From positions 1-37,120 of the forward strand of contig JAFAMM010000178.1 in assembly GCA_019233375.1 (NCBI GenBank): a stretch of DNA of 37,120 nucleotides, in the 5' to 3' direction. The position numbers and the translations under genes were made by a program. Positions within the stretch are counted from its first letter, which is position 1. Each line of letters opens with the position of its first letter. The notes beneath the pieces are model-generated. The model was not told where the DNA came from. It did not search any database and was given only the letters and a program-made list of their open reading frames with translations. This DNA is from Acidobacteriaceae bacterium (lineage in GTDB: Bacteria > Acidobacteriota > Terriglobia > Bryobacterales > Bryobacteraceae). Shown here in pieces: positions 3,854-11,414 of the stretch.

Positions 3854-5236
3854 TCACGGGCCGGATTTCATAATTTCGATCGGCCCGTTGTTGTTGGTCA
3901 GGCGCAGCTCGCAAGCGCCGCTTCCGATCTTGCCGCTTATCTCGCCGCCAGAAACGCCGTCCGAGCCGGAGACCAACAGCGGGAAGTCTGTGTGGATCTT
4001 TGCGAAGGAGGTCTTGGCGAATACGGCATAACTGGCATCGCCGGGAAGACGAACGCGAATGGGCGCGAAAGAGGTATGAACGATGACAGGTTGGCACCGG
4101 CCCTGCGCAGCGCTTGACGCCTCCACCGCCCCGTTCTGATTCTCGATCTGGATCGGGCCATCGATACCCTGGATGATAACCGAGGCAAAACTGGTGGCGA
4201 TCTGCGCGCCTTTCGCATGCGCTGCTTCTACGGACCCGTTTTGATTACGTACGGAGAGAAGGCCGCCGACCTCATTGATATGGACTTCACCGAATGAGTT
4301 CCTCACCGTAACCGGGCCGCCGGCGCGCTCCCCTTCGACTTTGGAATTGTTCGTGTGGACGGAAACCTGGCGTCCGATGTCGGCGAATGCGACATGGCTG
4401 AAGGTCGTGTTCAGCTCGGCAGCGCCGCTCACGTGAGCGGCCTCAATCGAGCCGTTGCCGTTGTTGACTGTCAGGTCGCCTTGTATATTGTGCACGGAAA
4501 CGCTGCCGAACGAGTTGCGGACGCTCGCAGGACCGCCGCAGTCATTCACCTCCACGGAACCGTTGTTGTTAGCGATCGTCACGCCTTTGGCGATGTGCGC
4601 GGTATTGATGCTCGCGAACCGGTCACGTACGTTCAACATGCCCTTGATATCTGATGCATCGATCGAGCCGTTTGTATTTTCAATCGAGACATCGCCCGCA
4701 TTGCCTTCCACGCGCACGGACCCGAAAGCATTCTCCAGATGCTCGGTTCCGGCGCCGTTGCGGCTTTCAACATTTCCGTGCGAGTTGGTCAATTGCGCGC
4801 CGCCTTTGACGCCGGTAACCGAGATGCCGCCGAACGAATTCCGCACCTCGAGAGGGGCCGTTTCGGGCATGGTGATCTCGTACCGCATGGAATAGGAGCA
4901 GCTACGGTAATTGAAGAACCCACCGCGTGAAGTGTCCGGGTAACGGGTGCGGATGGAAATTTCGCTCGATGACGGTTCAACAAGTATTTCCACGCGATCG
5001 GCATAGCTCTTCGCCTGATTGGCGTCGGCCGCTGAAACATGGATCACCGCATGTATCACGATTTCGGCCTGGGGATGCGTGCGAACAATGACGTCGCCGA
5101 ACTTATGCTCTACGAATACGCGCTGGCCCGGTTGCAGCGTAAGTGTTTTGTCAAAAGTACGGACATACTCGTCGCGTGCAAATGCCGTGGAAGCAAGCAG
5201 CACGCCCAATATCATCCAACTAATTCGTTTGATCAC
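3854..5236 (-). CDS. DUF4097-type beta-strand repeat protein with signal peptide
   Basis: Signal peptide VIKRISWMILGVLLASTAFA, then a long run of NSFGxVxV / NxNGSVEA repeats. GTG at 5236 preceded by GGAGTT; overlaps the upstream gene end by 17 bp. Confidence 0.85.
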   Translation of the reverse strand: MIKRISWMILGVLLASTAFARDEYVRTFDKTLTLQPGQRVFVEHKFGDVIVRTHPQAEIVIHAVIHVSAADANQAKSYADRVEILVEPSSSEISIRTRYPDTSRGGFFNYRSCSYSMRYEITMPETAPLEVRNSFGGISVTGVKGGAQLTNSHGNVESRNGAGTEHLENAFGSVRVEGNAGDVSIENTNGSIDASDIKGMLNVRDRFASINTAHIAKGVTIANNNGSVEVNDCGGPASVRNSFGSVSVHNIQGDLTVNNGNGSIEAAHVSGAAELNTTFSHVAFADIGRQVSVHTNNSKVEGERAGGPVTVRNSFGEVHINEVGGLLSVRNQNGSVEAAHAKGAQIATSFASVIIQGIDGPIQIENQNGAVEASSAAQGRCQPVIVHTSFAPIRVRLPGDASYAVFAKTSFAKIHTDFPLLVSGSDGVSGGEISGKIGSGACELRLTNNNGPIEIMKSGP

Positions 5237-5903
5237 GGGGGAGTAACTCCTGGAGAGTCTCTTTCTTTTCGCGGTACAAGTCGGCGAGCGCCGTTTGGAG
5301 ATGGATGTTGTATCGGTTGCGATCCAGGTTTGCCCGGGTTTCGGCGATGGCTGCATCGAGCAGTTTCAGCTTTTCACTGTAGTTCATTGCGACTGCATTA
5401 TGCGGATTGCGGAGCTCGGGCGCGGCGAGGTGAGAGAGTTTGTCGATCGAGTCGCGATAGGCGGACTCGGTACGCTCCACTTCAGCAAGGGCCTGCTCGG
5501 TCAGGAAATCGCGATCTGTCGTCTTGCTCTTGTCAGCGGCTGGCGCGGCGATGCTTGCCTGCTGGTTTGCGGTGGGCGCGGCCTGGTTTCGCCAAGGCCC
5601 CAGAAACAAGACAACAATCCCCGCGCACATAGCGAAAGCCGCGGCGATCGTCCACGTTTTGGCCCCCGCCCACCACGGACGTTGCGGTCGAGGCTGAGGC
5701 TGCTGCTTGAGCGCAGTCTGGATCGAGCCCCACAGCTCAGGCGAGGCCCATTCCTCATGGAGTTCCCGACCGACGGTGCTGATATCGTTCCAAAGCCGGT
5801 ACTCCTTTCGGCAGGCCTGGCAATGCTTGAGATGATCGCGGGCCTCCGGCATAAGCTGTCCTTGTTCGAGAGCGCGATCCAGATCTCCGCATTCGAACTT
5901 CAT
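5220..5903 (-). CDS. Anti-sigma factor with ZAS-type zinc-binding N-terminus, one TM segment and a long C-terminal helical region
   Basis: HLKHCQAC matches HxxxCxxC; TM WTIAAAFAMCAGIVVLFLG; start overlaps the stop of the sigma factor gene (5900-5903). Confidence 0.85.
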   Translation of the reverse strand: MKFECGDLDRALEQGQLMPEARDHLKHCQACRKEYRLWNDISTVGRELHEEWASPELWGSIQTALKQQPQPRPQRPWWAGAKTWTIAAAFAMCAGIVVLFLGPWRNQAAPTANQQASIAAPAADKSKTTDRDFLTEQALAEVERTESAYRDSIDKLSHLAAPELRNPHNAVAMNYSEKLKLLDAAIAETRANLDRNRYNIHLQTALADLYREKKETLQELLPRDQTN

Positions 5904-6571
5904 ACTGCGGACTCCGTCAAAAGACGCTTCAATTCGCGTTTCGCCTCGAAGAGCCAGCTTCGCGACGTCCCTTCGGGCACTTGCAGCACGGCGGCGATCT
6001 CAGAGTGCTTCAGGCCCTCCACTTCAAACATGAGAAACACCAGCCGCTGCCGGTCATTTAATGCAGCAAGCGCACTCTTTAGAGCGATTTTGAGAGCAGG
6101 ATCCGAACGGGAAGGACGTTCGTGCGAATAGCTGGCTTCGGCCCGCTGACCTCGTTTGCGCAAAGCGTCGTAACAGCAATTGATCAGGATGCGATAGATC
6201 CATGTCGCGAGCGAGGACTGGCCTTCGAAGCTGTTGAACGCCTTGTGAACCTTCAGGAAGGCCTCCTGAACGGTGTCTTCTGCATCGGCGTGGCTGCCGA
6301 GCAGGTGAAAAGCAAGACTCTTCATACGCGACGCATGCAACTCATAAAGGCGCTCGTAGGCGCGTAGGTTGCCACGCCTGCATTCACTAACAAGCTCGGC
6401 GTCGGTCGGGTTCTCTGGCAGACTAGCGGCGAATCGGAGCGGCAACCCGATCTCCCACACGTTGTAATCCTCTAGGTCTTCGTCGCGCTTTAGACGTTGA
6501 CTAATACCAAAACGTTGGGAAAGGGCAAAAAGTTCAGTAGTAAATGCGGTGTGAATTGTGGCCCAGGTCAA
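5900..6571 (-). CDS. RNA polymerase ECF sigma factor (sigma-70 family)
   Basis: Region 2 (LYELHASRMKSLAFHLLGSHADAEDTVQEAFLKVHKAFNSFEGQSSLATWIYRILINCCYDALRKR) and region 4 (LNDRQRLVFLMFEVEGLKHSEIAAVLQVPEGTSRSWLFEAKRELKRLL). Exact start uncertain. Confidence 0.93.
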   Translation of the reverse strand: MTWATIHTAFTTELFALSQRFGISQRLKRDEDLEDYNVWEIGLPLRFAASLPENPTDAELVSECRRGNLRAYERLYELHASRMKSLAFHLLGSHADAEDTVQEAFLKVHKAFNSFEGQSSLATWIYRILINCCYDALRKRGQRAEASYSHERPSRSDPALKIALKSALAALNDRQRLVFLMFEVEGLKHSEIAAVLQVPEGTSRSWLFEAKRELKRLLTESAV

Positions 6572-8156
6572 GTGAGGTGGTGGTGTGGCCGTACGGACCG
6601 GTAATCTTAAACGGAATGATCTTGACCTTGTCGTGATGTTTCAGGAATGGGGTTAGCGCTTTGAGAAATAACGACTTTGCCCCGGTTTGAGTGTCGGAGA
6701 CGTTGCCACTCGTCATCAGTGTGCCCGCGAAATCAGCCTGAAACGTCCGCAGGCTGTAAGTGCCGGAAAGCCGTGCGTCGGCGCCAGGTATATGAAATTC
6801 CACGTGTGACAGGTGAGCGATCCCGCCGGTAACGGTTGCTTGACCCCGAAGGTCCGAGAGAACCATAGCGACATTGTGCTGAGATTTCTCCTGCTTCCCT
6901 GCCTCCGACGTTTGACTCAGTTTAGTGAGCCCGGCTTCAGTCGACTGGTTGGTAAATTTGCTGCCCGCAATTCCGAAATTCCCGCTGAGCTTCATATCCC
7001 GAATGAACGATTGATACTCAGGAGGCAGGCCGAAGTGAGCTCCGAAGGAAACGTCGCCTGTCATGGGCGGCTCTTTAGAGGAGATGAACAGCTCGAGCAG
7101 GTCCTCAATGCGCGCTTGATTGGAGCTGAGCTGGATGGAAGCAATTTCACCATCGTGGGGGTGCGCCGCTGAAATCGAGCCGGACAGCAGGACCCTGGAA
7201 CGCTCGAACGCGGCGGTGATCGTCTCTAAGCCGATGCTGCCATTCGTCGCGTTCACGGTGACCTTGTAATTGACCGCGAGGGCCCTGGCGTGACTGCTGC
7301 CATGTACTGCGAAGTTCTGAACTTGCGCACTGCCGGTTATGCGAATTGCTCCGAGAGTTCCGTTGAATGCCCCGCGCGAGAACAGCGTGCCAGAGACGGC
7401 CTGAATAGGCGATAGGTCGCCGTGATCATACGTGAACTTGCCGCGTACCGGAGTGTTTGCCGTCTGCTTTGCGTCCCATGGCCCGAGCAGGCCTTGCAAA
7501 CGGATGAGACCAGGAACCTCTGAATTCGACAATTCCGCTAGATAGCGAATGGTCGTTCTGGTGCTGACGTGCTGCGCGGACAACCTGTTGAAAGCGACGC
7601 GCAATGGTTGAGGGTCATTACCGCGGTAGAACTCAAAGAGGCTGCCAGTCGCATCTAAGCGCCCGATCGGCAAAGATGATTCGGAAGCACTGGGCGTTAG
7701 CAGCAGCATCGGACTCGGATTGCCGGGTGGCTCGTTCGCAGGCACGATCAGATGCAATCCCCTCACGCGAACGGAGTCCAGACGGTGCTGGAACGTCAGC
7801 AGCGTGGGATAAGTGACCGAAATGGCGAGCTGCTGGATGGTGATGAGCGGCGGCTGGTTCTTGTGCTTGTACCGCAGAAAAGTGATTCCTTCGGCGACGC
7901 AGCCCGGAGGCAAGTAGGTTACGCGGAAGCGCGCGATCGTGACCGAGCGATGAGAGCGCTCCTGAAGAACGTCAATGAGGGCCTGCTTTTTGAACGGCCA
8001 ATGGATGCTGAACACAATCGCGTAAAACGCCGCAACCGCAATCAAAGCGAGTCCGGTGATGATCCATAGTTTGCGCCGTGAGCGCGTGGCCCGAGGCGGA
8101 TGAGCAGTGGTCTTCACGACCGGTGCCTGTGGCGCGGTGAACTGATCGAATCCCAA
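6534..8156 (-). CDS. AsmA-like membrane-anchored protein
   Basis: N-terminal TM (LWIITGLALIAVAAFYAIVFSI), DVLQERSHRSVTIARFRVTYLPPGCVAEGI, and low-complexity beta-rich body with C-terminal SGTYSLRTFQADFAGTLMTSG...PFKITGPYGHTTTSLDLGH, similar in style to AsmA/DUF3971-like proteins. Confidence 0.65.
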   Translation of the reverse strand: MGFDQFTAPQAPVVKTTAHPPRATRSRRKLWIITGLALIAVAAFYAIVFSIHWPFKKQALIDVLQERSHRSVTIARFRVTYLPPGCVAEGITFLRYKHKNQPPLITIQQLAISVTYPTLLTFQHRLDSVRVRGLHLIVPANEPPGNPSPMLLLTPSASESSLPIGRLDATGSLFEFYRGNDPQPLRVAFNRLSAQHVSTRTTIRYLAELSNSEVPGLIRLQGLLGPWDAKQTANTPVRGKFTYDHGDLSPIQAVSGTLFSRGAFNGTLGAIRITGSAQVQNFAVHGSSHARALAVNYKVTVNATNGSIGLETITAAFERSRVLLSGSISAAHPHDGEIASIQLSSNQARIEDLLELFISSKEPPMTGDVSFGAHFGLPPEYQSFIRDMKLSGNFGIAGSKFTNQSTEAGLTKLSQTSEAGKQEKSQHNVAMVLSDLRGQATVTGGIAHLSHVEFHIPGADARLSGTYSLRTFQADFAGTLMTSGNVSDTQTGAKSLFLKALTPFLKHHDKVKIIPFKITGPYGHTTTSLDLGHNSHRIYY

Positions 8157-8264
8157 GGCCAGGGGCTCCGTTTGAAAGGACCGAATGCGGACGGAAACGT
8201 TTCTCGCTACTTAAATGCGAAGGTATACTGCTACTTCTATTGCTGTCACCGGGAGGGACGATTG

Positions 8265-11200
8265 GTGAGAGGTACGTTCGTCTTCGCGAGCACGATGGGG
8301 CTGCTAACGTTCGCATCAGTGTTCATTACAAGTGCGCAGTCGATCGATCCGAAACTTTTTTCCGACATGCGATGGCGGAACATCGGTCCGTATCGGGGAG
8401 GCCGCACACGCGCCTTAGCCGGCGTACCCAGTCAGCCGAACGTGTTCTACATAGGCGCAGTGAACGGTGGTGTCTGGAAGAGCGATGATTACGGGCGCAC
8501 CTGGGATCCGATCTTCGATCATGAGCCGACAGGATCCGTGGGCGCCATTGCGGTTGCGCCAGATCCGAACATTGTGTACGTGGGAAGCGGCGAGGGCCTT
8601 CAGCGACCGGATCTCTCGACGGGCGACGGAATCTACAAATCCAGCGACGCAGGGAAAACATGGACGCATCTCGGTCTGCGCGAAGGCCAGCAGATCGCGC
8701 ACATTGCGGTAGATCCGCACGATTCGAATCGTTTGTTCGCCGCCGTGCTGGGGCATCCGTACGGGCCCAATTCTGAGCGAGGTGTGTTCCGCTCCACCGA
8801 TGGTGGCCAGACATTCGAAAAGGTTCTCTATAAGGACGAGAACACGGGCGCCAACGATGTGGAGATTGATCCGGCAAACCCCAAGGTTGTGTATGCGTGT
8901 TTGTGGGAATCGCGGCAAGGACCATGGGAGAACGCGGAGTGGAGCGGCACCGGTGGCGGAATTTTCAAATCGACCGACGGTGGTACAACCTGGAACAAAC
9001 TTGGGAAAGGTCTGCCGGCTGATGGCGATCAGGTGGTAGAGGCGAATCTCGCAATCGCGCCGAGCAATTCGAACATTCTGTATGCCGCGGTGGCGGCGAA
9101 AAACGAACTCGGCATCTACCGCTCAGACGATGCGGGCGCGACCTGGGTTAAGACGACCAATGACGAACGGTCGGCGGCGCGCATCGGCGGAGGAGACGCG
9201 CCGGTTCCGGCCGTTGACCCGAAGAATCCGGACGTCGTTTATACCGCGAGCGTGGTGACCTGGAAATCAGTCGACGGTGGAAAGACATGGACGGGAATAC
9301 GCGGAGCTCCTGGGGGCGATGACTACCAGAGCATCTGGATCAATCCGAACAACCCGCAGGTGCTGTTGATTGTGAGTGATCAGGGTGCGATAGTCACCGT
9401 CAATGGCGGCGAGACCTGGAGTTCCTGGTACAACCAGTCAACTGCGCAGATGTATCACGTCAATGCCGATAACGCGTTCCCGTACAGAGTGTGCAGCGGC
9501 CAGCAGGAAAGCGGGTCGGCGTGCGTTGCGACACGTGGGAACGATGGCGCGATTACTTTTCGTGATTGGCATCCGGTGGGTGCGGAGGAGTATGGTTATG
9601 CGGTGCCGGATCCGCTAAACGCGGACTTGGTATACGGCGGGAAACTAAGCCGCTACGACCGGCGAACCGGGCAGACGACGCAAGTAGGTCCGAAGCCGTT
9701 GCGGAGTGCGGATTACCGTGTTGTGCGAACGGCGCCCGTGGTGTTTTCGCCGGTAGATCCGCACATCCTGTATTTCGCCGGTAATACCGTGTGGAAGACG
9801 CAAAACGGCGGCCAAAACTGGCAACAGATCAGCCCAGACCTCACGCGAACGACATGGGAGGTGCCGGCGAGCGTTGGAAAGTATCGTCCGGACGCAAAGG
9901 TCACCAGACGCGGAGTGGTGTACGCGCTGGCGCCTTCACCGCTCGACAGCAACCGCATTTGGGCCGGTACGGATGACGGGTTGCTGCACGTCACCACCGA
10001 TGGCGGCGCGCACTGGACGAATGTTACGCCTCCGCAACTCAGTGCCTGGGACAAAGTGTCCATTATTGATGCCGGACACTTCGACAAGGACACGGCGTAC
10101 GCGGCGATCAACGCATTCCGCCTGGACGATCTGCGGCCTCATATTCTGCGCACACACGACTGCGGAAAGACGTGGACCGAGAGTGTGAAAGGCATCCCCG
10201 ACGGCGCAGCCGTAAACGTGGTCCGCGAAGACCCGAAGCGTAAAGGGCTGCTTTATGCGGGAAGTGAGCGAGAGGTTTACGTCTCGTTCGATGACGGTGA
10301 TCGCTGGCAGAGTCTCCGCTTGAACATGCCCGCGACTTCGATCCGCGATCTGCTTGTCAAAGGTGATGATTTGATCTCGGCGACGCACGGCCGCGGGTTC
10401 TGGGTGCTGGACGATGTGACTCCCTTGCGTCAAGTGAGTGAGTCGATGGCATCTAGCAACTATCTGTTCGAGCCGGAGACCGCGATCCGTGTGCGCTGGA
10501 ACACGAATACCGACACGCCCCTGCCCCCCGACGAGCCCGCCGGCCAGAATCCGCCGGATGGCGCGATCCTCGATTACTATCTGAGTTCGCCGGCAAAGGA
10601 GGCTGTAACGCTGGAGATCGTGAACGCCACCGGGGATGTCATGCGGCGTTATTCGAGTGCGGATGAAATGAGACCAATCGACCCGATGCTCGATATCCCA
10701 AAATATTGGGTTCGACCTCCGCAGGCGCTTTCGGCCGAAGCCGGCATGCACCGGTTTGTGTGGGACATGCATTTGCCTCCGCTGCCGGGTCTCGGAGGCG
10801 AAGAGGAGTTTCCGATGACGGCCATTTATCGCGACACCCCGCCTGCGCCAACTTCGCCCTGGGTTATGCCGGGCGCATATACCGTGACGCTGACCGTGGA
10901 TGGCAAGACGTACAAGCAGCCGTTAACGTTGCTGAAAGATCCTCGCGTGCAAACGACCGAAGAGGGCTTCGAGCAGCAGTACAGGATGTCGAAGGAGTTG
11001 TACGACGACATCAAGGCGACGCTCGCCGCAATGGATGAGATGAGGTCGCTGCGCGAGCAGTTGGGCGCGGCCAAATCCAAGACCGGTACGAGTGAGGCAG
11101 CAGCGGCGGCCGCATTAGATCAGAAAGCGGCGGCGCTCGAAGGCAAAATCCCGCCGAAGTTCGGCGGGGGCGGCCGGGCTCCCTGGACCGGGCCGGATAC

Positions 11201-11414
11201 GATGAATCGCGTTTCGGGGTCGTTGCGAACACTGATGCTGATGCTGCAGGAAGCCGACGTAGCGCCCACCAGCCAGGCCCAAGCCGCGGTCCGGGACGAG
11301 GAGAGCAAGTTCTCCGCTGTTATGGCGCAATGGAATTCAATCAAGATCGCCGATATTCCGAAGCTGAATGCGCAGCTCAAAGCCGCGGGTGTGCAGCAGA
11401 TCACGCTTCACTGA
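8265..11414 (+). CDS. Large secreted BNR/Asp-box repeat protein (VPS10/sortilin-like, often annotated as glycosyl hydrolase)
   Basis: About 11 Asp-box-like motifs (e.g. SSDAGKTWTH, STDGGQTFEK, STDGGTTWNK, SVDGGKTWTG, TTDGGAHWTN, THDCGKTWTE). GTG at 8265 after GGGAGGG gives a signal peptide (RGTFVFASTMGLLTFASVFITSAQS). Confidence 0.85.
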   Translation: MRGTFVFASTMGLLTFASVFITSAQSIDPKLFSDMRWRNIGPYRGGRTRALAGVPSQPNVFYIGAVNGGVWKSDDYGRTWDPIFDHEPTGSVGAIAVAPDPNIVYVGSGEGLQRPDLSTGDGIYKSSDAGKTWTHLGLREGQQIAHIAVDPHDSNRLFAAVLGHPYGPNSERGVFRSTDGGQTFEKVLYKDENTGANDVEIDPANPKVVYACLWESRQGPWENAEWSGTGGGIFKSTDGGTTWNKLGKGLPADGDQVVEANLAIAPSNSNILYAAVAAKNELGIYRSDDAGATWVKTTNDERSAARIGGGDAPVPAVDPKNPDVVYTASVVTWKSVDGGKTWTGIRGAPGGDDYQSIWINPNNPQVLLIVSDQGAIVTVNGGETWSSWYNQSTAQMYHVNADNAFPYRVCSGQQESGSACVATRGNDGAITFRDWHPVGAEEYGYAVPDPLNADLVYGGKLSRYDRRTGQTTQVGPKPLRSADYRVVRTAPVVFSPVDPHILYFAGNTVWKTQNGGQNWQQISPDLTRTTWEVPASVGKYRPDAKVTRRGVVYALAPSPLDSNRIWAGTDDGLLHVTTDGGAHWTNVTPPQLSAWDKVSIIDAGHFDKDTAYAAINAFRLDDLRPHILRTHDCGKTWTESVKGIPDGAAVNVVREDPKRKGLLYAGSEREVYVSFDDGDRWQSLRLNMPATSIRDLLVKGDDLISATHGRGFWVLDDVTPLRQVSESMASSNYLFEPETAIRVRWNTNTDTPLPPDEPAGQNPPDGAILDYYLSSPAKEAVTLEIVNATGDVMRRYSSADEMRPIDPMLDIPKYWVRPPQALSAEAGMHRFVWDMHLPPLPGLGGEEEFPMTAIYRDTPPAPTSPWVMPGAYTVTLTVDGKTYKQPLTLLKDPRVQTTEEGFEQQYRMSKELYDDIKATLAAMDEMRSLREQLGAAKSKTGTSEAAAAAALDQKAAALEGKIPPKFGGGGRAPWTGPDTMNRVSGSLRTLMLMLQEADVAPTSQAQAAVRDEESKFSAVMAQWNSIKIADIPKLNAQLKAAGVQQITLH

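Follow-up and report, generated by a model that had tools for sequence, protein, structure and literature searches.

A probable Toastrack-type beta-solenoid with alternating coils, encoded with an ECF sigma/anti-sigma pair in Acidobacteriota

Results

The sigma/anti-sigma operon

The window, that is, the whole stretch of 37,120 nucleotides that was analysed (Acidobacteriaceae bacterium, contig JAFAMM010000178.1), carries on its minus strand three genes in the order ECF sigma factor, anti-sigma factor and solenoid protein, joined by short overlaps. The sigma factor (5900–6460, minus strand), identified with Pfam and NCBIfam, contains sigma70 regions 2 and 4 only (PF04542, 1.9e-19; PF08281, 1.4e-14). 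Its likely start is GTG 6460 (VWEIGLP...), and the gene shares 4 nt with the beginning of the anti-sigma gene. The anti-sigma factor (5220–5903, minus strand) is a membrane protein with an HxxxCxxC (ZAS) motif, the columns of which (H24, C28, and C31) are invariant across the alignment. A transmembrane helix is predicted at 77–101, and a periplasmic three-helix domain at 128–220. The NCBIfam anti-sigma match (3.5e-10) was below its own cut-off, Pfam zf-HC2 gave no match in this protein, and a fold search with the periplasmic domain returned no significant match.

When the regions upstream of the sigma genes were aligned, a conserved ECF-type promoter, CCAACGTT-N14-CGTCTAA, was found at 6490–6518 on the minus strand. 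It can also be written as CCAAC-N17-CGTCTAA, and is probably autoregulatory. The exact form occurs once in the own genome, at the sigma operon, and the motif is absent from the own-genome paralogue L004. The looser form AAC-N17/18-CGTC was present at 27 of 44 loci, compared with 4% of shuffles.

Directly upstream of the operon lies an AsmA/DUF748-like gene (6534–8156, minus strand), a neighbour that, among the compared loci, is common only to the closest relative, L034. A large repeat protein, putatively sortilin/VPS10-like by its sequence, is encoded at 8100–11414 (plus strand); at L034 it is 88% identical over 523 residues.

The solenoid gene and its parts

The third gene (3854–5236, minus strand; stop codon at 3854–3856) encodes a predicted secreted protein of 460 residues of the Toastrack/DUF4097 type, as judged from sequence, homologue alignment and a structural model. 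Its start codon is most likely GTG 5236, which has an AGGAG site upstream and agrees with the starts of the homologues; the product then begins with a signal peptide. The open reading frame of 500 residues that begins at ATG 5356 is probably overextended, as GTG 5236 is the start that fits both the AGGAG site and the homologues.

The predicted signal peptide (VIKRISWMILGVLLASTAFA, followed by RDEY; 5177–5236, minus strand) belongs to an N-terminus that is conserved in orthologues. After it comes a non-repeat, strand-rich cap domain (4853–5176, minus strand), also conserved in orthologues. DSSP of the model gave about six strands and one helix ahead of the array; the published Toastrack cap is seven-stranded. 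The regular array (4205–4852, minus strand) is followed by irregular coils and a C-terminal cap (3857–4204, minus strand), where alignment and model place two cysteines, C381 and C442, that are invariant in 13 aligned sequences. Because of the signal peptide and these two cysteines, the protein fits a periplasmic location. Neither a surface anchor nor an autotransporter domain was detected by sequence inspection and Pfam, there being no lipobox, C-terminal anchor or barrel.

The repeat array

A sequence-only reading of this DNA had described twelve consecutive 18-residue units, without mention of the strand. Translation of the minus strand from 4852 to 4205 reproduced all 216 residues exactly. 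At position 7, the residues of the twelve units are F,H,F,N,F,N,F,N,F,N,F,N, so that Phe alternates with Asn (His once). The units beyond the array had been called irregular. They do show small changes in length, but the position 7 series still continues through them as F,N,F,F,N.

Self-similarity of the protein gave scores of 171, 244, and 290 at offsets 18, 36, and 72, respectively (z of 10.0, 13.0, and 15.0 above composition shuffles), against a best score of 9 at any offset in 200 shuffles. At offsets 17 and 19, self-similarity fell below the shuffle mean. When the units of the window protein alone were partitioned by whole-unit identity, the alternating split ranked 6 of 462, a moderate degree of support. 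It is the homologues, not the window protein alone, that supply the decisive evidence for alternation.

Alternation and array length in relatives

A first contig scan found no relatives; a second, carried out with alignment, found relatives that are all Acidobacteriota, mostly Bryobacteraceae/Bryobacterales. To parse the units, we used an 18-column profile and masked its positions 6 and 7. Among 28 Bryobacteraceae orthologues, one of which is the window protein, 328 pairs of adjacent units changed from F to non-F or back and 3 pairs did not, none of them F-F; these counts are not independent, owing to kinship among the orthologues. In other Acidobacteriota families, the alternating pair is F/N, F/S or Y/S, and in part Y/N; as many as 20 units alternate in succession. 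Ordinary Toastrack paralogues repeat one residue at position 7 (NNNN, GGGG, TTTT). Identity of adjacent units at this position was 0–1% in the alternating proteins, compared with 98, 79, and 77% in three sets of such single-type paralogues.

The array spans between fixed landmarks fell into classes near 218, 255, and 290 residues. The classes are separated by 36 residues, and all 24 of the 24 measurable spans belong to one of them, with no intermediate value. The lengths of single-type paralogues hardly vary, and thus are uninformative on 18-residue indels. With the alternation kept and the spans 36 apart, homologues behave as the sequence-only reading had predicted: the number of units varies, while the 18/36-residue period and the register of the two types are maintained.

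Distant Acidobacteriota solenoids (L139, L141, L143, L147, L150, L151, L154) have mixed Y/H/R/F at position 7, and alternation in them is unclear; such proteins may illustrate the origin of the rule or its decay. The single-type TSNG paralogues (L175–L204, L024, L027, L031) frequently carry a lipobox and are near-constant in length, unlike the alternating type.

Duplication is a common origin of internal repeats, and all the orthologues share ancestry, so the alternation might be a functionless legacy of a 36-residue unit that was duplicated recently. The DNA of the array units, however, is only about 42% identical (22.7 of 54), which excludes a recent tandem duplication; by this sequence measure the array is old. 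Moreover, other positions are free to vary, while the alternation at position 7 outlasts the change of residues (F/N, F/S, Y/S) across families. A functionless origin of this kind is highly improbable.

Fold and family

The Toastrack domain corresponds to Pfam PF13349 (DUF4097), together with DUF2154 and DUF2807 (PMC11237479). With PF13349, the window protein gave no match in Pfam even at E<1, and it was absent from a PF13349 scan of its own genome in which three other proteins were matched. The orthologue L016 was matched at 5.4e-15, above the cut-off, and NCBIfam gave a partial LiaG match of the window protein at 5.9e-9. When a profile of 13 orthologues was compared with that of DUF4097 lipoprotein paralogues from the same bacterial family, the two matched over their full length (prob 99.9, E=3.7e-32). 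One of these paralogues, L024, is itself PF13349-positive. Searches of PDB sequences with phmmer and a profile yielded compositional or chance matches only.

The AlphaFold2 model of the protein had a mean pLDDT of 90.8 and two strands per 18-residue unit. Foldseek against the PDB returned, as top matches, DUF4097/DUF2807 group structures, most of them under the title 'putative adhesin' (first 4qrk, E=1.8e-7), with low TM-scores of 0.15–0.24 of the query. AlphaFold2 over-predicts confident beta-solenoids for repeat sequences (PMC11795689). In view of this bias and the low TM-scores, we based the fold assignment on homology first and on the model second. The protein is, almost certainly, a divergent, ribbon-like Toastrack/DUF4097 beta-solenoid. 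The regular beta-solenoid that had been proposed from the sequence is borne out by the model and by its nearest solved structures, which are DUF4097/DUF2807 beta-helices. Toastrack has been predicted to be intracellular (PMC11237479); for the present protein such a placement is disfavoured by the predicted signal peptide.

Like Toastrack proteins, the alternating type has 18-residue strand-turn-strand units, an N-terminal strand-rich cap, a predicted beta-helix and a full-length profile match, and the C-terminal cap (TSFGKI...DFPL...G.IG.G....NG.I.I) is also common to both. It differs at position 7, where aromatic and small polar residues take turns, whereas Toastrack has one residue throughout. 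The variation of length in steps of 36, the signal peptide and the ECF/ZAS operon are further differences, and the score of the window protein is too low for detection by Pfam. The DUF2807 'head GIN' adhesins (3LJY, 3PET, 4OPW, 4YGU; PMC10949514) belong to the same beta-helix superfamily according to Foldseek, but no alternation has been reported for them, and their genomic context and phylum are different.

Conservation of the operon

A sigma factor adjoins the solenoid gene at 23 of 24 Bryobacteraceae loci and at 20 of 20 loci from other Acidobacteriota (43 of 44 in all). For single-type paralogues, a sigma factor was near the gene at 1 of 44 loci, the search in this case having been done with shorter flanks (~1.5 kb). 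That single locus is L023 (G056), a GGGG paralogue.

Promoter copies with two mismatches were no commoner than those of a reversed-pattern control. Two such copies were seen in Acidobacteriaceae bacterium KBS 96 (G024), which has the sigma/anti-sigma/solenoid operon as well. One is placed before a single-type (TVNGG) Toastrack gene, L218, the start of which is 51 nt from the first base of the copy, and the other ahead of a MacB/FtsX-like permease gene, L231. As the counts do not exceed the control, these are regulon leads only.

Discussion

Meaning of the alternation

Each unit supplies two strands in the model, and two extended sheets make up the published fold (PMC11237479). One coil would therefore most simply be one 18-residue unit, and F and N would take turns along a single ladder. 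The sequence-only reading had favoured separate Phe and Asn ladders, i.e. a 36-residue coil having Phe along one edge and Asn along the other. Such a coil would agree with indels of 36 only and with an autocorrelation that is higher at 36 than at 18. But the two sheets are already accounted for by the two strands of one unit, and the single-type paralogues are built from 18-residue units and give no indication of a 36 period at position 7. A 36-residue coil with two ladders is hence unlikely.

Position 7 sits immediately before a conserved Gly turn (G8). It should point inward, because its strand parity is the same as that of the hydrophobic positions 1 and 3. This does not suit the surface-exposed binding face that had also been suggested, in which aromatic rings on every second coil would stack on a polysaccharide and the protein would be a glycan-binding adhesin or a cell-wall binder. 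For an 18-residue coil with a rise of 4.8 A, the ring spacing would be about 9.6 A, near the disaccharide repeat of about 10 A. On the aromatic platforms of CBMs, such a spacing would suit a disaccharide repeat. The aromatic class is also retained, as F, Y or H, and a Porphyromonas DUF2807 relative acts as an adhesin (PMC10949514). However, apart from the inward parity, F is nearly invariant within Bryobacteraceae, the protein is without an anchor or lipobox, and the operon is a regulatory one. A ligand face therefore appears quite unlikely.

We consider it probable that the alternation reflects core packing at an inner position along one ladder. A bulky ring (F/Y) on one coil would be followed, one coil further on, by a small residue capable of hydrogen bonding (N/S), with F/Y and N/S of successive coils filling the same inner corner ahead of the G8 turn. 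Under this packing rule, the gain or loss of a single coil would not be tolerated, and units would therefore come and go in pairs.

Proposed circuit

Comparison of the sequences establishes the fold family, the strict alternation, the growth by two units, and the conserved operon with its promoter. As the solenoid gene almost always lies behind a sigma/anti-sigma switch in Acidobacteriota, its product is suggested to be a dedicated envelope-stress component, and its functional coupling to the sigma/anti-sigma pair is very probable. We lean towards a periplasmic scaffold that is both the main output and a feedback partner of this envelope-stress circuit. The membrane anti-sigma factor would detect an envelope signal by means of its predicted periplasmic three-helix domain. 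The sigma factor would be set free and would then transcribe its own operon, and the solenoid, the chief product of the circuit, would build up in the periplasm. There it would serve as a rigid scaffold, protecting the envelope and/or docking on the anti-sigma factor and thereby setting or resetting the switch. Direct contact with the anti-sigma factor, of which conserved adjacency is no proof, is possible, albeit somewhat doubtful.

The solenoid may instead be purely an effector, a member of the ECF regulon that protects the envelope or is adhesive and exerts no feedback on the pair. A conserved operon promoter, of which the genome has few if any further strong copies, would make the solenoid the main output, but its place as third gene directly behind the anti-sigma gene, at nearly all loci phylum-wide, is one that regulators typically take too. 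The protein could fill both roles, and an effector without feedback does not seem very likely.

The feedback scaffold has counterparts among known systems. RseB-type proteins are co-regulators of ECF anti-sigma factors and form a third, periplasmic partner encoded with the sigma/anti-sigma pair. The solenoid is likewise a third (predicted periplasmic) partner encoded with such a pair, but its fold is unrelated. With LiaX of Enterococcus and LiaG/YvlB of Bacillus it shares a beta-rich domain tied to an envelope-stress circuit. Theirs, however, is the LiaFSR two-component system, in contrast to the ECF sigma and ZAS anti-sigma factors here, and the solenoid protein is without the N-terminal helical domain of the LiaX type. 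LiaX is extracellular (PMC10269926). By analogy, the solenoid may work like LiaX or RseB while being a member of neither family.

A bolder view is that one large Acidobacteriota Toastrack subfamily uses a two-letter coil code in which aromatic coils have to alternate with small polar ones, the paired ladder being a read-out surface or ruler for sensing of the periplasm by the sigma/anti-sigma pair. This we regard as a long shot; if it is true, the solenoid lengthens or shortens by coil pairs only.

Significance

The fold is already known, and so, in general terms, is the connection between Toastrack and envelope stress. The literature covered, which lay largely outside subscription journals, described neither the operon nor any solenoid with an alternating ladder; the strict alternating subfamily, the two-unit growth, the phylum-wide sigma/ZAS operon and the promoter are not found there. 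Involvement of Toastrack proteins in envelope stress is widespread (Lia, PSP). Here, an uncharacterised Toastrack subfamily is tied to a regulatory circuit and a predicted promoter, and its function is therefore directly testable in a cultured Acidobacteriota strain. The alternating solenoids also offer a clean natural example of a coil-by-coil packing rule that outlasts the change of residues across diverged families.
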